From Branchiostoma floridae (Eukaryota > Chordata > Leptocardii > Amphioxiformes > Branchiostomatidae), in NCBI RefSeq assembly GCF_000003815.2, contig NC_049988.1, forward strand, positions 6,267,192 through 6,331,191: a DNA stretch of 64,000 nucleotides, given 5' to 3'. Below the pieces are notes generated by a model. The model worked only from the letters and a program-made list of their open reading frames with translations. It searched no databases and had not been told where the DNA came from. This document shows positions 10,769-64,000 of this stretch, in pieces; the first letter of the stretch is position 1, and each line of letters opens with the position of its first letter. A program made the translations under genes and the position numbers.

Positions 10769-12136
10769 CCTCACCCCTCATTTTTTGAAACAATTTCCAC
10801 ATTGTTGACAGCTGGTCATCACCGCTTTTCCTTTACAATTACATACTAATTCTTCTACAATGCAATGAAGTTATAATGAAAAAGTACAGGAACAACAGTA
10901 TAATCGTACATAACAAAAACATTCGACAGTCCGACAAAGCAATAACACAAACACAACAATTTACAACAACAAGTCCATCAATGGCTGCCAGGTGTCTTGC
11001 TCCGACTTCCTCCTCGACGGCCGGCTTGCGCACTTCCGGGTGTGTCCCGGAACCACAGGAAACGACAGGAACTCCTCTGCCCGTCGGGAAGAGGCTTGTC
11101 TTGTCAACAGAGGCCTCCCGGCTGGATGCTCCCACGACGACGACTCCTATACGACGTCGGGCCCTCGGGGCATCGTTGTCTGCCGAGTCGTGCTGTGGAG
11201 TCTCGCCTGTAGAGGTTGGGGTCGGACAGGGCACGCAAAGCAACCACTGACGCACATACACATAACACCGGACTTCTAACCTCGACACCACATCTACGTC
11301 TCAACTCAACTCCGCTGCTCTCTCCTCTACCTCTCGACTTAAACATTAATATCTCCTCAACACATAAACACAACAAATAGACCTTCCGACAACTACATGA
11401 AACGCCGGACACCCCTGACCTGCTATATGGTAACATCATACGAACTACACATTACTATCCCGGGGAGTAAAACCCACATGTATATCTATAATTCTATCTC
11501 TATATGTCTGTCTTACATCTAAACTGACCCATCTGGTGACTCCCCCCCACTGACTTCCGCCACGTCCGCATGATACTCGCTGCTCAGCTAATCTATACTG
11601 TATTCCTGATAGCACTGACATAATTTATCTAACATTGGTTGCCTACATTCTAACAAATCTAAAACTACTACAACAAAGCTGAATAAAGTAAGTAACAGAA
11701 CTAGGCCGGTGTGCACGGTGCGTCAATGATATTATGCGAGCCCACCGACCTTCCTCCTGTGTCTCTCTCTGCCCGGCCGGGCGCTCTTCCTCAGGGCACC
11801 GCCGCGTGGCCGTCCTGCCCCTGCTCTGCTGCCGCGCCCGCCGTGTGGCCGTACTCCGCTCCCCTCGCCGCTGCTGTAGGCCATTACTGTCGCGGTCATC
11901 ATGATCACAAATCGCTTCGAGTCAGTCTGCATCTCTCGGACGCCTCCCCTCCTGCTTCCTCTCGCTCGCCTCGGCCACCGACACTCCCTCGCCGCCTTGC
12001 CCCTAGCTGGTCAACCCTGCGGGCTCGGTACTCCGGGCCGGCGCTCTCTGAGTCGAAGTCAGCCTGCGTCTCTGTACACTCCCGTTTGCCTCTGTCCCGT
12101 CCGTTGAACTTGACTCACCCCAGCCGTACTACCAGA

Positions 12137-12375
12137 TGTCACGGTGGCATGGTAGTGAGTCAAGCAAGGATCAGGACAGAGGCATGATGTTGCGGAGATG
12201 ATAACTTTATTCAGGACAATCTGGACACGTCCTACCCTGTCGGCGTCTCTAGCTGGAATCCCCTACCCTAATACGTGTCCCTTCTCAAACCCCTGTACAT
12301 CTGCTCCCAATTACTCGGGTGACACTCCCCACACCAGGGGTGATCACAGAGTGATCACGATGTCACCTCGTGACA
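12137..12375 (-). repeat. 5' LTR
   Basis: Nearly identical to the 3' LTR; the one difference seen is a T/A in the segment caggWcaatctgg. Confidence 0.85.
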
Positions 12376-16130: not shown

Positions 16131-17513
16131 TGTCACGAGGTGACATCGTGATCACTCTGTGATCACCCCTGGTGTGGGGAGTGTCACCCGGGTAATTGAG
16201 AGCAGATGTACTGGGGTTTGAGAAGGGACACGTATCTGGGAAGGGGATTCAACCGAGAGAAGCCGACAGAGAAAGACGTGTCTACCAGAAGTCCGAATAA
16301 AGTCTTCTATCCGCAAACATCATGCCTCTGTCCTGATCCTTGACTTGACTCACTACCATGCCACCGTGACATCTGGTAGTACGGCTGGGGTGAGTCAGGT
16401 TCAACGGACGGGACAGAGGCAAACGGGAGGTGTACAGAGACGCAGGCTGACTTCGACTCAGAGAGCGCCGGCCCGGAGTACCGAGCCCGCAGGGTTGACC
16501 AGCTAGGGGCAAGGCGGCGAGGGAGTGTCGGTGGCCGAGGCGAGCGAGAGGAAGCAGGAGGGGAGGCGTCCGAGAGATGCAGACTGACTCGAAGCGATTT
16601 GTGATCATGATGACCGCGACAGTAATGGCCTACAGCAGCGGCGAGGGGAGCGGAGTACGGCCACACGGCGGGCGCGGCAGCAGGGCAGGGGCAGGACGGC
16701 CACGCGGCGGTGACCGGAGGAAGAGCGCCCGGCCCGCGCAGAGAGAGACACAGGAGGAAGGTCGGTGGGCTCGCATAGTATCATTGGCGCACCGTGCACA
16801 CCGGCCTAGTTCTGTTACTTACTTTGTTCAGCTTTGTTGTAGTAGTTTTAGATTTGTTAGAATGTAGGCAACCAATGTTAGATAAATTATGTCAGTGCTA
16901 TCAGGAATACAGTATAGATTAGCTGAGCAGCGAGTATCATGCGGACGTGGCGGAAGTCAGTGGGGGGGAGTCACCAGATGGGTCAGTTTAGATGTAAGAC
17001 AGACATATAGAGATAGAATTATAGATATACATGTGGGTTTTACTCCCCGGGATAGTAATGTGTAGTTCGTATGATGTTTCCAAAGCAGGTCAGGGGTGTC
17101 CGGCGTTTCATGTACATGTAGTTGTCAGAAAGTCTGTATGTTTGTGTTTATGTATTGAGGATATGTATGTCGAGAGGTAGAGGCAAGAGCAGTGGTAGAG
17201 AAGAGTTGAGACGTAGGTGAGGTGTCGAGGTTAGGAGACCGGTGTATGTGCGTCAGTGGTTGCTTTGCGTTGTCCTGTCCGACCCCAACCTCTACAGGCG
17301 AGACTCCACAGCACGACTCGGCAGACAACGACGCCCCGAGGGCCCGACGTCGTATAGGAGTCGTCGTCGTGGGAGCATCTAGCCGGGAGGCCTCTGTGGA
17401 CAAGACAAGCCTCTTCCCGAAGGGCAGAGGAGTTCCTGTCGTTTCTCTGTGGTTCCGGGACACACCCGGAAGTGCGCAACCGCCGCCGAGGAGGAAGTGC
17501 CGCGGACGGTACC
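16131..17513 (+). mobile_element. Second copy of the LTR element, 3' part lost in gap
   Basis: The 5' LTR (16131-16371) starts TGTCACGAGG, carries AATAAA near 16296 and ends ACCGTGACA. It is followed by the same primer-site candidate tggtagtacggc. The interior (16372-17513) matches the reverse complement of 12136 down to about 10990. The copy runs into the N-run at 17514, and no 3' LTR is visible after the gap. Its LTR differs from the first copy at more positions than the two LTRs of that copy differ from each other. Confidence 0.85.
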
Positions 17514-17613
17514 NNNNNNNNNNNNNNNNNNNNNNNNNNNNNNNNNNNNNNNNNNNNNNNNNNNNNNNNNNNNNNNNNNNNNNNNNNNNNNNNNNNNNNN
17601 NNNNNNNNNNNNN
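17514..17613. other. Assembly gap (100 N)
   Basis: Interrupts the LTR element before its 3' LTR. Confidence 0.98.
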
Positions 17614-17829
17614 GCATTTCTGTTCTTCATGGAATATGAAACATTCAGAAACGAATGTCTGTAAGGGTCTTACATTTGTGGCAACATTTAAAAAAATGGA
17701 TTTTGGTCATATTTTGCACAGTGATAGTACTTGGTACACAACCCCTCAAAATAGCTTTCTTTCTGCTCCGAACCTCGTTCCTATGGAAACAGGCCAAAGA
17801 AGTTTATGGGCCATTTTTCCAGATTTCTG

Positions 17830-17990
17830 TATCAGCTTCTCTATCTGTAAAGTTGGAATAACCGCCCTTCGGCATATCACACCATCTTCTGTATCTGTAT
17901 CTGTATCTATATAGCCGGAATAACACACTATCTTTTGTATCTATATCTCTATACCCTGTATAACCACCCTTTGGCTATCATATCAGCTTC
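17830..17990. repeat. Interspersed repeat with tctgtatctatatagccgg motif
   Basis: Two to three imperfect copies of a unit containing tctatatagccggaataac and ccacccttYggc. The same motif stands at 32275-32330 and, inverted, at about 63905-63965, inside the large inverted repeat pair. Confidence 0.6.
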
Positions 17991-18692: not shown

Positions 18693-21600
18693 GTAAGATT
18701 TCCCCTCGATCATTTGTTACTTATTGATTTCTATCAAAGTTTATTGAAGTCAATAACATACACAAGCTTAACTTTTTATGTATCGTTTTTCCTAATGGAG
18801 CATCAAAATATCATAAACATACCTATGCGTGTTTTAGGTACAAATTTCAAAGTTGAATGTGTTCAATTGCACACTCAATTTGCCAGCGGCATTATTATCA
18901 TCATCGGATCGGCTGCTACGTAAATCGTGCAATTATCCGGCCAGGTGGTGCAACAATACGAAGTTATTCAGCTGAACCGCACCGTTTTGGGATGTAGGGA
19001 TTCCATGGAATTATCTGACTTCTACTGTACAATATTTTGACTGAGAAATTCTAATAAAAAACAAGTGACCGTAGGTATCATACTTTGTGTCCTAATTATG
19101 GTTATGTCGGTTGTGATATGGGTTTTGTGGTGTATGACTTGCTGTTATCGCATATAGAACACATCACTTGAACTTATACCCAAAACTTACTTAAAAGCTA
19201 ACATATGTATAACTGCCAAATTTATAACACAATCCTGTACGCATCAACAGCAAAATCAGCGTCTTAATCCATGCCCGAGCCATGATTTTGTTGGTGTGTG
19301 TGTGTGTGTGTGGGGGGGGGGGGATTCTGTTTAGTACTGGTGGGACCATCGAGAGCCGCGTGTACGAGCTGCCTTGGGGGGACCGGAGCATGCTCCCCCG
19401 GAAAAATTAAAACCTTGACCCTCTGAAACGCCATTTCCTGCATTTTTACGGGCAAAATTCGCTGGCTAAGTTTAATGGAATTTCTATTAAAATACACAAG
19501 GCTTTGGGCATAAGTCTTTGAGGCCTATTCCCCCGATATATTTTTACCATGTCCGACACCAAAGGCGCGAGGCGTCGCAATGGAGGTCCGGGGAAATTTT
19601 GAAATCTGGACCCACTGAAAAGCCATTTCCTGCACTTTCTAGGGCAAATTTTGCTGATAGACTCACTAAGATTGAATGAAATGTCTATCAGTGAAAAATG
19701 TAAATCAGCTATGCCTTTGAAAAAAAATTGGGACATAAAAAAGTGGACCTTCGAGCGTGAAAAAGCGGTCATTTGAGCGTGTGGAGGGTTCTTTCGAAGG
19801 ACAACATCTGCTTGACGATATTCAATTGCCTCAAGGCTTAATGCGCGGTCATAACGAAGACCTAAACCACTTTACCGGACGGCAGGTATTTTTACATCCA
19901 TGATAAAAACAGCTACCGCGAAAAAAAAGAAGTTCATCATTTCGCAACGAAGTACAGACGACATGCCAAACCACATACGATTGCTGCAAATGGAACATAA
20001 AGTTATAGGTGCGAACACTCAACGCATTAAGTGATCACAAGACTCTGTCGCTGAAGGTTACCCTCCAGTCACAGAGTACGAGGGGCGTGCAATAAGTAAG
20101 GGTCCTGAGACTCCTGACCCACTTCCAGTTGTCTGATCTAAATGAAATTTTGTATGTGTAATAATTCGTATCTCTATGGGTTATGTTGCAAAAGACAGCT
20201 CTGAACTAATTGTGGTTTCTGGTTTACTGGTGTTTGAACTTAGTCAGGTGCGAAATGGACCAGGTGTGAAATGGAACCAGTTGAGTGTCGCGCAGTGATC
20301 CGGTTTTTGTATTTGAAAGGACGCACACCAAAGAAGACTTTTGATGAAATAAATGAAACTTATGGTGATGATGCCCCATCATATGACCTTGTAAAACGCT
20401 GGCATCCTGAATTCAAACGTGGCTGGAAGTCTGTGGAAACAGCTCCCAGACCTGGTCGTCCCTCTTGTGCCATTGATGAGGCATCAGTTGGAGGACCAAC
20501 CTGGGGTGTCCTACAAAATCGGTGTCCAGAGCTGCATCAAACGATGGGAGAAATGCATAACTCTGGGTGATTCCTATGAAGAGAAAGACTAATAACTGTG
20601 CCAAGTTTCATTAATCTCCTGCTATGGGAAATGGGTCAGGACCATTACTAATTGCACGCCCCTCGTAATACGGGGAATTATGGTTACCCTTTATGATAAC
20701 CCCGTCTTGGTATATGTTTAGCATTGTAGACATATCTTTAGTTCCATTTCACAACACAGACTGAAAGGTGTATTTATCTTTTAGTAACTTGGATTGTTTG
20801 TATCCACAGATGTCGATGAATGTTCAGATGGCACAGACAACTGCGACGCTGACGCAACCTGCTATAACACACCCGGCTCGTTCTCATGTATCTGTAACGA
20901 TGGTTTTGACGGAGATGGACTCACTTGTAATGGTAAGAACAACGAATCTTGTAGTCCATACGTTACCTCCATTTTACAACATTTACAAACTATCATTTAT
21001 TCACTGAAACTTGTGCTGTTTTTTTCCGCAGATGATAACGAATGTTCAAATAACGAGCACAACTGCGACAATGACGCAACCTGCTCTAACACACCAGGGT
21101 CGTTCGTCTGTTCCTGTAACCATGGTTACGACGGAGATGGACTCACCTGTGATGGTAAGAACAACGAATGTGATTGAACATTCAGTAATTCTTGTAGTCC
21201 ATACGTAACCACCATTTTACAACACTTACAAACTCTCATTTATCCATGGAAACCTGCCACCGCTGTGCGCGGGGTGAATCACTATATGCACATTAGGGAT
21301 ATGAAGCCGATGGCTGCACAGATCAGAACTATAGAAGAAAGAATAACTGTGAACATCCCTGTCACCTTTGTATAGAATTAATCATTATATACACATTAGG
21401 TATATGCGCCAGGTGCAGGTGTAACTAGAGTTCCACATTACCTTCTCCAAATTATCCTTACCTTTAAAACTGCTGTATTAATTGTGTTTGTCTTATTTGC
21501 ATAAATTATATCAGTTGATCATCTCCTCCACCAGACACATCTATGTTAAAAAAGAAGGCTTTTATCGCATTTTCTGATCATTTATGCAAATAAGGATCTC

Positions 21601-30600: not shown

Positions 30601-33600
30601 ACTATTTCATCCACCCGTTCCTTCCCAGATTTTTGTGCCCGCATGCTTCCTAACAATGCAACAATTAGACTAGTTCTTCATGTTGAAATAGGTGTCAAGT
30701 GTGAATCAAAGCAAGGAGGTAAAAATAATGTTAATCATCTTGATAAAACCTGATAAATCTACGTAACCAAGCGTTTGGGGTGACGCCTAAGCTTACTTGA
30801 TGTTGCCTGGAAAGTAATGATCACCGTTGAATGGTTCGAAGCTTGGCTGACATTTATAAAAGGTTTTATATGCCCCGAAATTGGAGCTGTACATGAGCGT
30901 GAGGTCCCGAACTTATTGATCACCCCTCAAGATGTATTGATGAGTTCGATCAGTACAAGTGCCGACTAGTTTGTTAATTGTATACTCGAGTGATAAAAAA
31001 TGATAATGTAAACGTCTTTCTGTATGTCGTCAAGGTAAGTAAGCACGATGTTCCAATAAGTCGAGTAACCAAAGTTCAACTTAGCACAACTTTAGGCAAC
31101 TAAGTCAAAATCTGTACACTGCATTTCAGCTAACAAGGCATAGATAAGCTTACCTCACTCATGAATGCCGAAGAAAAGTTCCAATTTCTACAGTGTTTTC
31201 TGGTTGCTTCGAATTGACAAGAAAGAGAAGAGAATTGTTTTTGTACTTCAATTTTAACCTTTGTTCTCTGCGTGCGTTCTCCCTACGTACAGCAGCTCCT
31301 GAGATGAACATTAGCTAACTGTGACGACCATCCATGTGGTGACTTAGTCCATGTAGAACACCAACAAATGTGCAGCGATAGTAGCAAATTCATTAGGGTG
31401 ACTTTACAATAAACCATTATTGCTAGCATCACTATTATATTACTATAGTATATAAAACGGGTGAAACTGTGTTCTCTCGTGATCTAACGCACAGGTCAAC
31501 CTACCGGACAAGGGCGACGACGGCGAGGTGTTCCTGACAGACGTATATCATGTCCATCAAGACGACACATTCCCGCCACACCCAACATAGAGACTCTTAC
31601 CGCCACAAGGAAAGTAGGTCGAGTCCCTTCACGAGAAGTGGCCATCGCTGAGAGGAGCCAGAATATACGTTTGTGCGGCTTGAAAATTCTGAACAGAGGG
31701 GAGCCACACAACATCCAGAACAGCGCCATCGACAGAAGGGAAGTAGAGGCCAGTAGCAGAGCCAAGACGTACAGCCGATAGATTGCGATCATACTTGTAC
31801 ATGTATAGAAAACCTGACATGACACCAGTTATAGAATTCACGGATTGACTGATTGACTGACTGTTAATATCACGAATATGTATTTTAGTGTATACATTGT
31901 AGTAGTTGATTTTATATGTATATGAATGGACCGTAGATGAAATAACCGTTGTTTTGTGGTGTGACAAGACCTGTATGTTTGATACGTCAAAACGTGACCA
32001 CGAGACAGAGAGTCAGAGAGTACAGTTCAGAAGAGAAAAAGAGATCCTCAGCTAAGAACGAGGTTAGCGAGGCCAGCATTACTAGTATATAGTAACGTCA
32101 AACCATCTTAACAGTCTCCAGTGCCCAGTGTACGGAAAACCTTGTCTCTGCGTCCTTCCTTTATTCTAGCTATGCTAGTCTTCAAAGCAGAATCTTAACA
32201 ACTTGACACCCATTGGTTTCAAGGCTTGTTTGAAACATGTGATTTCTTAACTTTTCACAATCAGACTTTACGTAATCTGTATCTATATAGCCGGTATAAC
32301 CGCCCTTCGGCGTAACACACCAGCTTCAATTCCAAACGACAACAACCTGAAAGCACATCATTTCATGTTTCATAAAAAGATATCGACAAAAATTTGTGGT
32401 ACATTGCTTTGGTCTTCATTATTTTTTTTTTTGACCTCGTGAAAGCATATCATCCCACCTTGTAAAAGCTAAGCTCAAAAGATATTGGCAAAAGTTGTGC
32501 TATATTGGTCTTGTCTTCTTTAAAACATCTTATTTTTCTACCCCTCTTAATCAGGCTCTCTATGACTTCGAACGATAACCACTTGACAGCATTTCATTCC
32601 ATATTGTAAAAAGTACAGGCTTATAGAAGACATAACGGCAAAAAGCTGGGACATATTGGTCTTCATTGCAAAATCATAAAGCATGCGAAACATCGTACTA
32701 GTAATAATCTGTGTGTACGTCTTATGATATGCAAGGAGCGCTGTCATTCCCGGCTATGTGAAAAGACCGTTCCCTTAAATCATTAATCCTGAAAACAAAA
32801 AAATGCCTCAACAAAGAAAAATAACAGCTAGAATACAATGATACAATTTTTAAGGCTTTATATCCGTACACAAAATAAAGCGCTTCCCAACAAGCTTTCG
32901 ATCAGTCCTCTGATCCTTCTCAAGTTGTAATGACCCAAAACCTAAGTCGCACTTCCGGTGGGCTCTGATGTAAATAGCCTTTTCACTCCACTAAGAAAGT
33001 AATCCTGTTCGGAATCAAGTATCTTCACCTTGTCAAAATCCACAGAGTGTCCCGGAGATTCTATGGATGTGTTGCGCAACCTCCGATGTTTTAACTTGAG
33101 AAGGATCAGAGGACTGATCGAAAGCTTGTTGGTAAGCGCTTTATTTTGTGTGCGGATATAAAGTCTTAAAAATTGTATCATTATGTTAACTACCGTCACA
33201 GATGAACTTACATTCAAACAGCTAGAATAGTCCTCAATTACCAGTGTATGAACGACGCCCCTGCGGTTTAGCCAAAAATCAATTCCCAAGGGAATGCATT
33301 CGTGGAATTTTCTAAATTCTTTCAAAGCGATCGTAATACTGTAGAAAATGCCTCCGCCCCTGAGGCGTCGCCAAAAAGTTGAATCCATTTGAAGATTTGA
33401 CAGGAGAAGAAACAAAGGAAAAACAGCATATTGCAGATCCATACTGTAGTATGGATTGTCACCATGTCACCATGTCACCATGGTACCATGTCGCTGCGAA
33501 TGGCTATATTTTCCTCCCATGACATTTCATGACAGAGGATTTCTGTTGAACGAGTTTCTTTGCCTTTCTCCCTGTTTAAGTCGTCAGAAGAGGACAAATT

Positions 33601-36600
33601 TACATTCATCAACGAGGCCATCGCCAGTCCGGTGACGTCTGACAACGGAGCCGTGAGAGGGGCGCCTTTCAGCAAGAGGTTCTGGTGTAAGTTCCTCCGT
33701 CAGTACGTGGTCTCGCAGGGAGGGGAGATCCTCTACAACATCCCGTCTCCTCGGTAAGTTCCACCGTCAGTACGTGTTCTCACAAGAAATGGAGATCCTC
33801 AACAACATCCCGTCTCCTCGGTAAGTTCCACCGTCAGTACGTGTTCTCACAAGAAAGGGAGATCCTCAACAACATCCCGTCTCCTTGGTAAGTCCCTCCG
33901 CCACTACGTGGTCTCGTAGGGAGGGGAGATCCTCTACAACATCCCGTCTGCTCGGTAAGATCCCCCGTCAGTACGTGGTGTCACAGGAGAGGGAGATCCT
34001 CTACAACATCCCGTCTCCTCGGTAAATTACTCCTTTAGTACGTGGTTCCGTCTCTTCGGTAGGTTCCTCCGTCAGTGCGTCGTCTCACAGGGAAGGGGAG
34101 ATCCTCTACAACATCCCGTCTCCTCGGTAAGTTCCTCCATCAGTACGTGATCCCGTCTCCTTGGTAAGTTCCTCCGTCAGTTCGTGTTCTCAAAAGAAAG
34201 GGAGATCCTCAACACATCACGTCTCCTTGGTAAGTTCCTTCGCCAGTACATGGTCTCACAGGGGAGGGCGATCCTCTACAAAATGCCGTCTCCTCGGTCA
34301 GTTCCTCCGTCAGTACGTGGTCCCGTCTCCTGGTTAAGTTGCTCCGTCAGTTCGTGTTCTCACAAGAAAGGGAGATCCTCAACAACATCCCGTCTCCTTG
34401 CAAGGTTCCTCCGTCAGTACGTGGTCTCACAAGGGAGGGCGATCCTCTACAAAATGCCGTCTCCTCGGTAAGTTCCTCCGTCAGTGCGCGGTTCCGTCTC
34501 CTGGTTAATTTCCTCCGTCAGTTCGTGTTCTCAGAAGTATGGGAAATCTTCTACAACATCCCGTCTCCTCAATAAGTTCTTCCGTCAGTACCTCGTCTCA
34601 CAAGGGAGGAAGATCCTGTGCAATATCCCGTCTCATCGCTTATTTCGTCAGTACGCGGTCCCGATACCTCGGTCAGTACGGGGTCTCATAGGGCAGGGAT
34701 GACCTCTACAACATTAATCTCTCTCTTCGGTAAGAGATGTCAGTACTAAGACAACCTGTCTGAATGAGCATTGCCGTATTACATTGATAAGCATTACAGT
34801 GTGAACAAAGAACATAGAACTTTTTTTCGGTGTCAACTCCCTTTTAGTTTCCTAATAACATTTATTCAGAGAGGGCTACTTTGACTTGATGCCTTGACTT
34901 GAGATTTCTGGGACCGGGAACGAGGTTGTGGGGTGTTGGGTATTTCATTCGCTATAGCCTATACATTCATTATTCTACTTTCTCATTCAACTATCTGTAT
35001 AGTTGCCCACTCGATTTTTATATGTTTACAGTTTGCAAGTGGTGGGCGCGGAAAACAATCTCACCTTTGAGATGCACATGTTCAAATCGTCAGACTTCAC
35101 TGCGACATACAACTCAGACGACTACCCTGTGCAGGTCTGCTGTTTTTTTTCAGAGACTTTAACGTTTGTCAATTTTTCTTTTTGGGCAAACTGTCATTGC
35201 ATTCCGGCTAGGATTCTTGTCTTCTCTGCAAACCAGCCGGAAAGTCATGATCTTCTTTCAGTTGATATGCTTGTCGTTTATAGATATCGTAACAACTGGC
35301 TTTGTCTTGGTTATCTCTCCCGATATGCAATGCGTATTTTATTGTTTTCTCATTTATTGGTGCATCCTTAGGTGTCCTCCTCTGAAAATCTGAACTTCAG
35401 GTTGAGCGTGAGCTCACCTCTGAACGACTTGAAGCTGTTCGCTCTCCGCTGCCTCGCCACGCCCAGTACCGACCCTGAGGACTCTCCCAGCATCAGCATC
35501 ATCCATGACGGGTATATATAACGTGATTAATTAATATTCAAAGGAGCCAAGTGCTTAACCCGTATCCATCCATGGCGATTAGACTGTTATAGGCCTCCAG
35601 GTAAAGATGCGACAAAAAGCAGATACTCAAGCAACTGGATATGATTCGGGAAACAGACGTTTTAGGCAGCATTCACTACCGTTCGCCAGTGACACTATTT
35701 CCAAAAGTTTATCCAGGTGTTTGAGTAACTAATTGATTACAGTGAGTCATCTGCTACCGAATGATGGAGCAGTGAATCATTATTCTATGGCGTTTACAAT
35801 AACGCTTCTCCTATAGGTGTGAAGTTGACGCCACGCTTCAGCTAGACACAGCACGGTCTAACGACATGGCCTTATACTACTCAATCGAGTCCTTCTCCTT
35901 CCCCAACATTGATGATCCCAGTCTGGTACGAGGGTAAGTCAGAAAGTAATGCAAGTGGTTTCATAACAGACTCGTTTTATTGTCAATTGAGTTGAAATTT
36001 GGCACAAAAGTAGCGATATATGTCCTCTTGAGATTGAATGTTTTAAATCTGGTCTTTATTATTTTATGAGCAACTGAGTTGATTTCAAGATGAACACACC
36101 CTTAGTACCTTGTCAGACTAGCGATTCCTCTAAATCTCACCCACTAAAAATCACTGTAGGAAGTTGAAATTACTCATGTATGATACCAAATGTCTCTATA
36201 GATTGCGTGCCAATTTTCATCTCTAAACTCGTAATGGTTCTTTATTTACAGCTGCTAGGATGCAGTAAGTTGTGTTATAGAGCTGTTGGATTTATACACG
36301 AATTCGTGAGTTGTTGGTTAAAAGACTACTTTTCCATTCACCAAAAGAAACGAAACTTTACACAGTTATTAACTGTTTAAAGGCCAAAAAGTGTGCTAAG
36401 TTTCATTTCTCTTTGTTAATGGAAAACAAGGCTACGGAAAGTTTTAATAATAACACCGCAGATCTAATGACCCTGAAGACCGCGTATACCTCACTCTACA
36501 CCAGCAACGAAAAAAGAAAAACTGCTCAGATTTCAGAGTTAAAATTAAGCGTGTGGCTTATACAGAAATGCAGCTTATTACATGTGCAGGCTTAGTCTCC

Positions 36601-37801
36601 TACAATAGCAAACATTGGTTTAGGAATATTCTTAATTGTACGTTAATTGGACCTCTCTTTTCTTCTGACGGGATACCAAGGGTGTGGTCACCTTGAAAGC
36701 AGCTCAGTCACACATAAAGAAATGAGCAACAAATTTTGATATTTCAATCTCAAGAGAAGATATGTCTTAACCTTTGTGCCAAATTTCAACTCATTCGATC
36801 AAAGAACGACTCTGTTATGAAACCACTTGCATTACTTTCTGACTCACCCTCGTAAAATAGGCAGTCATTAATCTGGTGGTGGCTGGGCTAGCTTTCAACC
36901 AATAGGGAGTCATTGGTCGGGCGGTGGGCAGTGTTAGCTGTCAGCCAATAGGCATTCATAGGTGGTGGCAGGGCTAGCTGACAGTCAATAGGCAGCCCTA
37001 TGTGGTTGCAGGGCTAGCTGTCAGCCAATAGGGAGTCATTGGTCGGGTGGTTGGCAGTGTTAGCTGTCAGCCAATATGGAGTAAGTGGTGCTGTCAGCCA
37101 ACAGGGAATTTGTGGTAGCGGCAGTGTCAGCTGTTAGCCAATAGGGAGGCAGTGGTGGTGACAGTGCTAGCTGTCAGCCAATAGAGAGTCAATAGTCTGG
37201 CGTGGGCAGTGCTAGCTGTCAACCAATAAGGAGTCAGAGGTAGTGGCAGTGCTAGCTGTCAGCCAATAGAGAGTCAGTGGTGGTGGCAGTGCTAGCTGTC
37301 AGCCAATAGGAAGTCAGTTGCGGTGACACTCCGGGATAGCTGTTAGTATGAAGTTGATTTCATTACGTAAGGTGGTGATCCCGTAAATGTGTTTAAAGTA
37401 ATCAGAGCCAATTCCTGCTCTTTCATCCATCTTATTTGGGCTTCATGATCAGCAGCCGTATTATATCTCTGTATCGGTGCTCACTGAAAGGTTTCTTCAA
37501 TGTGATTATCCTTTGCTACTACACAGTACATGGTGCTTGGGTACCTTAAACGCATGTGCAAGTTCCATACATATGTTGCCCTTTCCTCCACGACAGGTGT
37601 ACATATACTTCCATTGCACCATGGTGGTCTGTTTCAAGAACGACCCGGACTCGCGGTGCAGTCAGGGCTGCATCCCGCCCAGCCGGCGCAGGCGCGCTGT
37701 GTCCGACCTGAGCGAGGCCCGAGTGCGACGTGCCAGCGAAAGGGACAGCACAAGGACCGTCACCCAGGGGCCCTTCAAAATGGAGAATGCACAAGAACAA
37801 G
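18620..37801 (+). CDS. EGF/fibronectin III/zona pellucida domain protein (17 exons, 3' end unresolved)
   Basis: The exons are 18620-18692, 20810-20932, 21032-21154, 22142-22264, 22413-22535, 22925-23047, 23189-23311, 23713-23835, 23977-24099, 24360-24626, 24959-25140, 33581-33753, 35032-35134, 35372-35511, 35817-35925 and 37597-37801. Another is expected after the last phase-1 donor. They encode a signal peptide, eight calcium-binding EGF domains, one FN3 domain and a complete ZP module followed by a furin-type RRRRA site. All junction phases agree (1 up to the first ZP exon, then 0, 2, 0, 2, 0, 1). ZP modules polymerise into extracellular filaments, and EGF-ZP proteins such as uromodulin and oikosin-like proteins form matrices. 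No transmembrane or GPI segment was found, so the C-terminus is missing or in the gap at 38157. Confidence 0.85.
20079..20665 (+). mobile_element. Internally deleted Tc1/mariner element
   Basis: Inverted ends cgaggggcgtgcaataagta and its complement are flanked by TA on both sides (20077-20078, 20666-20667). From 20271 it encodes a mariner N-terminal helix-turn-helix ([17 protein letters not shown], then [13 protein letters not shown]). A deletion then jumps to a C-terminal remnant in another frame ([10 protein letters not shown], about 20549-20569). The DDE catalytic core is gone, so it is inactive. Confidence 0.9.
20810..20932 (+). CDS. Exon: calcium-binding EGF 1
   Basis: 123 bp, phase 1-1. 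[12 protein letters not shown] then [17 protein letters not shown]. DxDEC, the Asn/Asp hydroxylation-type position and six cysteines give the calcium-binding EGF pattern. Confidence 0.9.
21032..21154 (+). CDS. Exon: calcium-binding EGF 2
   Basis: 123 bp, phase 1-1. [12 protein letters not shown] then [17 protein letters not shown]. Closest to EGF 1 in sequence. Confidence 0.9.
22142..22264 (+). CDS. Exon: calcium-binding EGF 3 (type A)
   Basis: 123 bp, phase 1-1. [20 protein letters not shown] followed by [17 protein letters not shown]. First member of the type A/type B exon pairs. Confidence 0.9.
22413..22535 (+). CDS. Exon: calcium-binding EGF 4 (type B)
   Basis: 123 bp, phase 1-1. [20 protein letters not shown] then [16 protein letters not shown] is a possible N-glycosylation site. 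Confidence 0.9.
22925..23047 (+). CDS. Exon: calcium-binding EGF 5 (type A)
   Basis: 123 bp, phase 1-1. Nearly the same as EGF 3 and EGF 7, with TAGYVGDG in place of PTGYAGDG. Confidence 0.9.
23189..23311 (+). CDS. Exon: calcium-binding EGF 6 (type B)
   Basis: 123 bp, phase 1-1. Nearly the same as EGF 4 and EGF 8 ([13 protein letters not shown]). Confidence 0.9.
23713..23835 (+). CDS. Exon: calcium-binding EGF 7 (type A)
   Basis: 123 bp, phase 1-1. A copy of EGF 5 displaced by 788 bp, with a few changes. Confidence 0.9.
23977..24099 (+). CDS. Exon: calcium-binding EGF 8 (type B)
   Basis: 123 bp, phase 1-1. A copy of EGF 6 displaced by 788 bp (FSCTCEEG instead of FNCTCEEG, which removes the glycosylation sequon). 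Confidence 0.9.
24360..24626 (+). CDS. Exon: fibronectin type III domain
   Basis: 267 bp, phase 1-1 (acceptor cccccacag, donor acaacag/gttgg). [31 protein letters not shown] and [15 protein letters not shown] show the conserved Trp, the Tyr-x-Tyr strand and the L..TEY.F.V.A pattern. One full FN3 domain, and distinctly GC-richer than the surrounding introns. Confidence 0.9.
24959..25140 (+). CDS. Exon: start of the ZP-N subdomain
   Basis: 182 bp, phase 1 to phase 0. [28 protein letters not shown] and QTGLQDCGT supply ZP-N cysteines 1-3 (VEC, DSC, DCGT). The next exon lies 8.4 kb downstream. Confidence 0.85.
25650..26460. repeat. Diverged tandem repeat, about 150-160-bp unit
   Basis: Five or so copies of a unit containing aaaatatacatttttagtca followed by aaaatggccaaaa and later tttcagctcatttggt. 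Copies are AT-rich and poorly conserved. Confidence 0.6.
29083..29223. mobile_element. Foldback MITE (attctccaagYagaggttt ends)
   Basis: attctccaagtagaggtttg at the left pairs with caaacctctgcttggagaat at the right. The interior gcggagatagt/actatctccgc extends the stem. About 140 bp, no coding capacity. Confidence 0.75.
32235..33377 (-). repeat. Large interspersed repeat, inverted copy of 62875-64000
   Basis: Over about 1.14 kb this is the reverse complement of the end of the window with few differences. Internally, 32852-32935 and 33089-33186 are inverted copies of each other (cgatcagtcctctgatcctt and its complement), so the element can fold back. A minus-strand frame of more than 120 codons ([20 protein letters not shown] onward) is shared by both copies, but I recognise no domain. 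Transposon class is unknown. Confidence 0.8.
33581..33753 (+). CDS. Exon: ZP-N end and linker
   Basis: 173 bp, phase 0 to phase 2 (acceptor cctgtttaag, donor cctcg/gtaagt). It encodes [38 protein letters not shown] and [13 protein letters not shown] is ZP-N cysteine 4. The last 67 bp of the exon (33687-33753) form the first unit of the tandem array that follows. The donor at 33754 is fixed by phase: the next exon supplies the single base completing the Arg codon. Confidence 0.8.
33754..34735 (+). repeat. Minisatellite made of ZP exon end plus splice donor, 67-bp unit
   Basis: The motif gtaag/gtaaa recurs at 33687 (inside the exon), 33754, 33821, 33888, 33955 and 34022, exactly 67 bp apart. 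About ten further units follow, several shortened to 35-40 bp. Each unit holds ttcctccgtcagtacgtg, gagatcctctacaacatccc and gtctcctcg followed by a donor-like gtaagt. Confidence 0.95.
35032..35134 (+). CDS. Exon: start of the ZP-C subdomain
   Basis: 103 bp, phase 2 to phase 0. [20 protein letters not shown] and [14 protein letters not shown]. The F.M.M..S..F...Y...YPV pattern is typical of the region linking ZP-N and ZP-C. Confidence 0.8.
35372..35511 (+). CDS. Exon: ZP-C
   Basis: 140 bp, phase 0 to phase 2. [19 protein letters not shown], then [20 protein letters not shown]. The C.ATPS.DP and IIxDG motifs are ZP-C hallmarks. Confidence 0.85.
35817..35925 (+). CDS. Exon: ZP-C
   Basis: 109 bp, phase 2 to phase 0. 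It completes DGC and encodes [20 protein letters not shown] then [12 protein letters not shown]. The next exon opens in phase 0 (VYIYFHC), so the donor must be CTG/GTACGAGG rather than the better-looking GTAAGTCAG eight bases later, which would break the frame. A mariner-type element begins three bases after the exon end. Confidence 0.8.
35929..36852. mobile_element. Mariner-type element with long inverted repeats, inserted in a splice donor
   Basis: Its ends (cgagggtaagtcagaaagta and the complement of tactttctgactcaccctcg) continue as inverted repeats of about 190 bp, with TA flanking both sides (35927-35928, 36853-36854). The 924-bp body has no transposase. A fragment with similar terminal sequence lies near 10140-10240. 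Confidence 0.9.
36870..37343. repeat. Minisatellite, about 37-45-bp unit, 11-12 copies
   Basis: The unit is approximately gtggtggcagtgctagctgt followed by cagccaatagggagtca. Every copy carries a CCAAT/ATTGG-type pentamer. Intronic. Confidence 0.9.
37597..37801 (+). CDS. Exon: ZP-C end and furin site
   Basis: 205 bp, phase 0 to phase 1. [16 protein letters not shown] and [19 protein letters not shown] hold the last ZP-C cysteines and a dibasic/furin site (RRRRAV), where ZP precursors are cut before assembly. The tail ([20 protein letters not shown]) is polar. If the donor (caag/gtagct) is ignored the frame ends after ten more residues at 37831-37833. Confidence 0.8.
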
Positions 37802-62529: not shown

Positions 62530-62874
62530 GTAAGACATGGAGGTCATAAATTTGGTCTCTTGTATGCTACAGCTGTCTGGTTACTTCTGTGTGTTGTGAA
62601 AATGTATTTTGCTGTGTCCGTCTAACTTCAAACTTTTACAGATGAAAGCAATGTTTAACTGGTACTGTGGCTGCATGTCAAGTTTTGATTTCAATTAAGT
62701 TTAACAAGACAGTATATACTGTAGTTAACTTGAATTTTGTGCAAAACTTCTTTCTCAGTCTGTTTTTGAGAGATTGTATATTAAGGAGGCTCACAGAAAA
62801 CTTATCATGCAATATCAATGTCCCACATGTACAATGTGGGGAAAAATTAGTCTAAGTTCAAGAATACTACACGA

Positions 62875-64000
62875 TTTTTGGCGACGCCTCAGGGGCGGAG
62901 GCATTTTCTACAGTATTACGATCGCTTTGAAAGAATTTAGAAAATTCCACGAATGCATTCCCTTGGGAATTGATTTTTGGCTAAACCGCAGGGGCGTCGT
63001 TCATACACTGGTAATTGAGGACTATTCTAGCTGTTTGAATGTAAGTTCATCTGTGACGGTAGTTAACATAATGATACAATTTTTAAGACTTTATATCCGC
63101 ACACAAAATAAAGCGCTTACCAACAAGCTTTCGATCAGTCCTCTGATCCTTCTCAAGTTAAAACATCGGAGGTGGCGCAACACATCCATAGAATCTCCGG
63201 GACACTCTGTGGATTTTGAAGATACTTGATTCCGAACAGGATTACTTTCTTAGGGGAGTGAAAAGGCTATTTACATCAGAGCCCACCGGAAGTGCGACTT
63301 AGGTTTTGGGTCATTACAACTTGAGAAGGATCAGAGGACTGATCGAAAGCTTGTTGGGAAGCGCTTTATTTTGTGTACGGATATAAAGCCTTAAAAATTG
63401 TATCATTGTATTCTAGCTGTTATTTTTCTTTGTTGAGGCATTTTTTGTTTTCAGGATTAATGATTTAAGGGAACGGTCTTTTCACATAGCCGGGAATGAC
63501 AGCGCTCCTTGCATATCATAAGACGTACACACAGTTTATTACTAGTACGATGTTTCGCATGCTTTATGAATTTGCAATGAAGACCAATATGTCCCAGCAT
63601 TTTGCCGTTATGTCTTCTATAAGCCTGTACTTTTTACAATATGGAATGAAATGCTGTCAAGTGGTTATCGTTCGAAGTCATAGAGAGCCTGATTAAGAGG
63701 GGTAGAAAAATAAGATGTTTTAAAGAAGACAAGACCAATATAGCACAACTTTTGCCAATATCTTTTGAGCTTAGCTTTTACAAGGTGGGATGATATGCTT
63801 TCACGAGGTCAAAAAAAGTAATGAAGACCAATGTGCCACAAATTTTTGTCGATATCTTTTTATGAAACATGAAATGATGTGCTTTCAGGTTGTTGTCGTT
63901 TGGAATTGAAGCTGGTGTGTTACGCCGAAGGGCGGTTATACCGGCTATATAGATACAGATTACGTAAAGTCTGATTGTGAAAAGTTAAGAAATCACATGT
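62875..64000 (+). repeat. Large interspersed repeat, inverted copy of 32235-33377
   Basis: Starts at tttttggcgacgcctcaggg and continues to the window end, so it is probably cut by it. It shares the frame [20 protein letters not shown] and the internal foldback (cgatcagtcctctgatcctt, about 63133-63152, versus about 63328-63347). Confidence 0.8.

Follow-up and report, generated by a model that had tools for sequence, protein, structure and literature searches.

Transposon insertions that alter the splicing of host genes are known for Tc1 in C. elegans and for Ds in maize. Damage by a transposon to a donor (5' splice) site, with a competing site carried in the end of the element, is an event of a known type. 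The available text of PMC9860276 describes introners that bring one splice site with them or obtain it from the target duplication. What is uncommon in the case reported here, from a 64,000-nucleotide stretch of the Branchiostoma floridae genome (hereafter the window), is that the disrupted donor comes with a set of paralogous empty sites. The window lies on contig C10 of the genome that we searched (513.4 Mb, 431 contigs).

The affected gene lies on the forward strand, and we identified five exons of its ZP region: exon a (33588..33753, containing the end of ZP-N, its start approximate and its 3' end set by TCG followed by the donor GTAAGTTC), exon b (35032..35134), exon c (35372..35511, matched by tblastn in paralogs), exon d (35817..35925, ending in the residues DDPSL) and exon e (37597..37801, with the residues VYIYFHC). 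Joined together, these exons give one open frame without stop or frameshift, exons a and b being open in frame with those that follow. The joined protein matched Pfam ZP-C even without the upstream exons, with exons b and c inside this match, and also matched eight PDB sequences, including ZP2, ZP3, uromodulin and GP2. When upstream exons were added by eye, we recovered PF23344 (ZP-N), which covers exon a, and PF00100 (ZP-C), plus EGF and fn3 (fibronectin III) domains. The host gene encodes a ZP-domain protein with both ZP-N and ZP-C, the joins upstream of exon a being assumed by eye.

We additionally observed that the end of exon a and its 5' splice site (CCGTCTCCTCG followed by GTAAGTT) are tandemly repeated into the next intron, at 33687-34663 of the window and also at loci L089-L094, with periods of, for example, 37, 67, 104 and 115. 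Within the next 1500 bases, exact copies of CCTCGGTAAG recur 3 times in the window, 6 in L089, 4 in L090, 9 in L091, 6 in L092 and 5 in L094; L093 has none, and has a short array (about 2 units) with altered donors. TRF matches for this repeat are 71-91% in the window, and reach 98% in the paralogs.

Exon d ends in GATCCCAGTCTG at 35925, its last codon being CTG, and the following intron opens with GTACGAGG (35926..35933). The sequence-only reading had taken the TA of this opening GTA to be the target duplication of a 924-bp element with TA flanks and long inverted repeats, and this can be read directly in the window, with coordinates exact to the base. The two copies of the duplication lie at 35927..35928 and 36853..36854, and enclose a non-coding, mariner-like element at 35929..36852. 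Comparison of its arms delimits a 5' terminal inverted repeat (TIR) at 35929..36117 on the forward strand and a 3' terminal inverted repeat at 36664..36852 on the reverse strand; with the TAs included (35927-36117 and 36664-36854), the arms measure 191 nt and are 80% complementary. The end motif of the element occurs twice in the window, compared with no occurrence in 100 shuffles. The duplicated TA keeps GTA as the opening of the intron: positions +2 and +3 of the present donor are the duplication, and the bases from +4 on belong to the transposon, so that the GT was preserved and the rest of the donor replaced, as had been claimed. The old intron resumes at 36855..37325 with a 40-bp minisatellite, for which TRF calls an array from 36874, and the insertion point separates the GTA from the first unit-like stretch of this intron-opening repeat.

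The element belongs to a large family. Its end, TACGAGGGTRAGTCAGAAAGTAATGC, occurs 272 times genome-wide when up to 2 mismatches are permitted, versus 0 times for a reversed-pattern control. We fetched 39 other copies, and scored 40 with the window copy among them, from 691 candidates, a sample biased toward window-like copies. The ends of the window element are common to these other copies except L026, L032 and L033. TA directly adjoins both ends in 37 of the 38 other copies with both ends visible, the exception being the 3' side of L026; L032, whose 5' end runs into N, was left out of this count, and L033 is without the first C of the element. Truncation or greater divergence marks three further copies (L049, L051 and L052). 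At both ends of the family a consensus 5' splice site lies about 6 bases inside the element, and GTRAGT is present in 76 of the 77 ends of other copies (37/38 5' ends and 39/39 3' ends). Thus, an insertion in either orientation brings a donor.

The longest stop-to-stop frame overlapping the element has 104 aa, and a Pfam scan of this frame returned no match. Elsewhere in the genome we identified seven matches to PF01359, with transposase-bearing elements of about 1.3 kb that have related ends; no partner with an identical TIR was found among the seven. The nearest TIRs (CGAGGG..A.TAAGTAATG) are on L096, L097 and others, with 6-7 mismatches in 24 positions for L097 and 7 for L101, and a 1.6-kb TIR pair at L048 encloses no frame longer than 72 aa among those listed. 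The element is a non-autonomous mariner-like transposon, with a TA duplication, shared terminal inverted repeats and no intact transposase in its longest frame. Its earlier description as mariner-type holds as far as the TA duplication and the similarity of the terminal repeats go; the end motif TA-CGAGGG likewise fits the mariner group, an assignment drawn from these features and not from a transposase, none having been found in the element.

Other repeated sequences were noted in the window. A second mariner-type element, at 20077-20668, stands just before an EGF exon; its TIR (TACGAGGGGCGTGCAATAAGTAAGG) is nearly identical to that of L096, and it contains a fragment that by eye resembles the N-terminal portion of a mariner transposase. 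Two nearly identical open frames lie in opposite orientation (32942-33466 on the reverse strand and 62729-63229 on the forward strand) and probably represent a repeat element, and similar stretches with overlapping open frames, also in opposite orientation, were found at 10839-12187 and 16282-17914.

Two groups of copies are visible in the family, and the window copy falls by identity in the younger one (16 full-length copies and L032). It differs from the majority sequence of this subfamily at 12 of 924 sites (1.3%), and nine of these 12 changes are absent from all 17 members fetched. One of the nine converts the family GTGAGT to GTAAGT; the older group has the same A in 8 of its 22 copies. 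That the window TIR might be an unusually strong donor for its family is not supported, the GTGAGT form scoring -10.1 and the window form -10.0 kcal/mol. The available text of PMC12862219 gives B. floridae a mutation rate of 5.89e-9 per base per generation and a pi of 0.0397. With this rate, a divergence of 0.97-1.3% corresponds to about 1.6-2.2 million generations, an upper bound for the age of the insertion since part of the difference may predate it. The same values give a 2Ne of about 3.4 million as the neutral depth; the estimated age lies below this, which predicts that the insertion is polymorphic. It is thus probably both recent and polymorphic. In the open literature searched, judged by title or abstract opening, the insertion was not reported.

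The state of the site before the insertion can be seen in paralogs. A protein search with exons c-e in the same genome found 88 matching places, of which 20 loci were chosen and fetched, and the ends of the paralog exons were placed by homology, not transcripts. Exon d is present in 19 of the 20 loci, and in all 19 a GT stands at the same place, directly after the homologous codon; L081 has exon e without exon d in the fetched stretch, and L067 has exon d without exon e. The donor is GTAAAA in 15 of the 19 (GTAAAAT in 14), the others being GTACAA (L071), GTACGG (L079), GTAAAC (L080) and GTAAGA (L084). In three loci (L065, L067 and L070) the first 18 intron bases are identical to the joined flanks of the window; in L065 the identity extends back over the last 24 bases of the exon, giving 42 identical bases across the junction. 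The pre-insertion donor that had been proposed, CTG followed by GTAAAATAGG, is therefore directly observed in paralogs. Several C5 paralogs have introns that lack the element and are homologous to the downstream part of the window intron, indicating that the intron is older than the insertion. In the window gene and in near paralogs, the 40-bp minisatellite opens at about intron position +4, right after the donor. The atypical GTAAAA, which has no G at +5, is kept in its 15 paralogs although deeper intron bases diverge.

We scored donors as ViennaRNA energies of the duplex with the 11 bases at the U1 5' end, in a fixed register, a calculation that ignores exon enhancers, U6 and spacing effects. 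The old donor gives -5.3 kcal/mol and the present native donor -4.1 kcal/mol. The terminal repeat contains a competing donor, GTAAGTCAG (35934..35942, forward strand), at -10.0 kcal/mol, better by about 6 kcal/mol and only 8 nt from the native site; it pairs better than each of four further donor sites scored in this gene (-9.3, -5.8, -6.7 and -6.2 kcal/mol). Among the paralogs, 18 of 19 donors fall between -4.1 and -5.3 kcal/mol, with L084 apart at -8.0; those of L079 (GTACGGTAG, -4.3) and L071 (GTACAA, -4.1) are as weak as the present donor of the window. As nearly all paralog donors are weak, the weak site here follows the rule of its family; the insertion met a native donor that was already weak and left it slightly weaker. 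Scoring of both sites, which had been proposed as a check (-10.0 for the TIR donor against -4.1 for the native one), agrees with the sequence in bearing out the claim of a stronger donor at 35934, whose use adds 8 bases and breaks the frame. The wider statement, that a transposon replaced most of a donor and brought in a competitor, is correct on both counts, but the site lost was not a strong one.

Use of the TIR donor would shift the frame and create a stop within exon e, 90 nt before its end; with codons numbered from the first of exon d, this stop is codon 77. Nonsense-mediated decay follows a 50-55-nt rule, by which a stop at this distance is predicted to trigger it. In this truncated reading the match to Pfam ZP-C covers profile positions 2-111 instead of 2-133 and is still significant (E 2.9e-18). 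Retention of the intron would bring a stop three codons on. The window allele of this redundant gene family is most likely damaging or hypomorphic.

We also compared the constraint on the host gene with that on its relatives. Values of dN/dS are 0.37-0.81 against ten near paralogs (L065-L072, L076 and L077), 0.15-0.31 against nine more distant ones (L073-L075, L078-L080 and L082-L084), and 1.39, on few sites, against L081 with exon e alone. The window gene has nine private amino-acid changes, the most of 10 sequences (0-6 in the others), a comparison in which close relatives cannot show the private changes of a branch that they share. After the acceptor it also contains two inserted codons (6 nt), reading VYIYFHC where near paralogs read VYIHC or VYFHC. 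These patterns suggest that constraint probably acted on the gene during part of its history, perhaps more weakly than on its relatives.

The reading that we favour, at a probability of roughly 0.6, is that a recent non-autonomous insertion split the donor, that the TIR donor is often chosen, and that the resulting partial or full loss of function is tolerated and polymorphic. A mariner-like transposon entered the TA of the GTA donor of one member of the ZP family; the duplication left a GTA at the start of the intron, with transposon sequence from +4 onward, and the terminal repeat offered AGG/GTAAGT 8 bases downstream, by calculation a far better match to U1. U1 would then often pick the transposon donor, yielding mRNA with 8 additional bases, a shifted frame, a stop and decay of the message, with some normal mRNA still made from the native donor. 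The outcome would be a loss of function, partial or full, that the many paralogs make tolerable and that is probably still polymorphic. The weak donors of L079 and L071 speak against a takeover, since the native site may still serve as theirs do, and the five open ZP exons speak against damage, although the insertion may be too young for visible decay; the ZP-C match that the truncated reading keeps is a further point against it. The same evidence fits a neutral insertion, in which exon context keeps splicing almost exclusively at the GT at 35926, the TIR donor goes unused and the intron is merely longer. That a weak donor is the family norm (GTAAAA in most paralogs, and two at -4.1 and -4.3 kcal/mol, as low as the window) and that the frame is intact both agree with this account; it has to contend with a site 8 nt away whose U1 pairing is about 6 kcal/mol stronger, and we regard it as unlikely, though with a real chance of being correct.

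It is quite improbable, in our view, that the window gene was a dispensable duplicate already degenerating when the element arrived, leaving the insertion without consequence. The excess of private changes, whose count is blind to shared branches of close relatives, and the two-codon insertion could be signs of such prior decay; the five ZP exons without stop or frameshift oppose it, and dN/dS against the ten near paralogs suggests constraint for at least part of the history of the gene. We give very little credence to an introner-like origin, with the element building or replacing an intron and its own donor functional. A strong donor is present at both TIR ends, and introners with one splice site of their own are known, as mentioned above; but the paralogs have the same intron without the element, which largely refutes the proposal that the element created it, and splicing at the TIR donor disrupts the frame. 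Nor did we find targeting of donors by the family: the exact pattern of GG before the TA, which covers only exons ending in G, has three matches genome-wide, and the two besides the window are without an exon-like flank. A broader view, which we consider doubtful, is that the family acts as a portable donor in a chordate genome and takes over exon ends when it lands downstream of exons in either orientation. The window copy would then be a takeover in progress, with a fallback donor preserved by the duplication and two mRNAs in competition.

The locus offers a clean natural experiment in donor choice: many paralogs have the same weak site, and one has its sequence from +4 onward swapped and a strong donor 8 bases away. 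A comparison of carriers with non-carriers would reveal the weight of U1 pairing strength in the choice between close donors. Apart from this test, the locus is an ordinary insertional allele.

The element resembles non-autonomous (MITE-like) Tc1/mariner transposons in its TA duplication, its terminal inverted repeats, its many similar copies and the lack of coding capacity found, and differs from them in its length of 924 bp, its inverted repeats of about 190 bp, and in that the PF01359 matches yielded related TIRs, none identical. Like the splicing insertions of Tc1 and Ds, it has cryptic splice sites in its ends that would change the mRNA; in contrast to these, it lies inside the donor, and the duplication itself gives positions +2 and +3. 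With introners, as described in the accessible part of PMC9860276, it shares the use of a DNA transposon whose duplication or ends give splice-site bases, whereas here the intron was pre-existing, none is new, and a donor but no acceptor was recognised. The split of a donor by an inserted sequence also recalls stwintrons, as far as these are presented in the accessible part of PMC12403724; at this locus, however, the insert is a transposon rather than a demonstrated internal intron, and if its own donor were spliced, transposon sequence would remain in the message.
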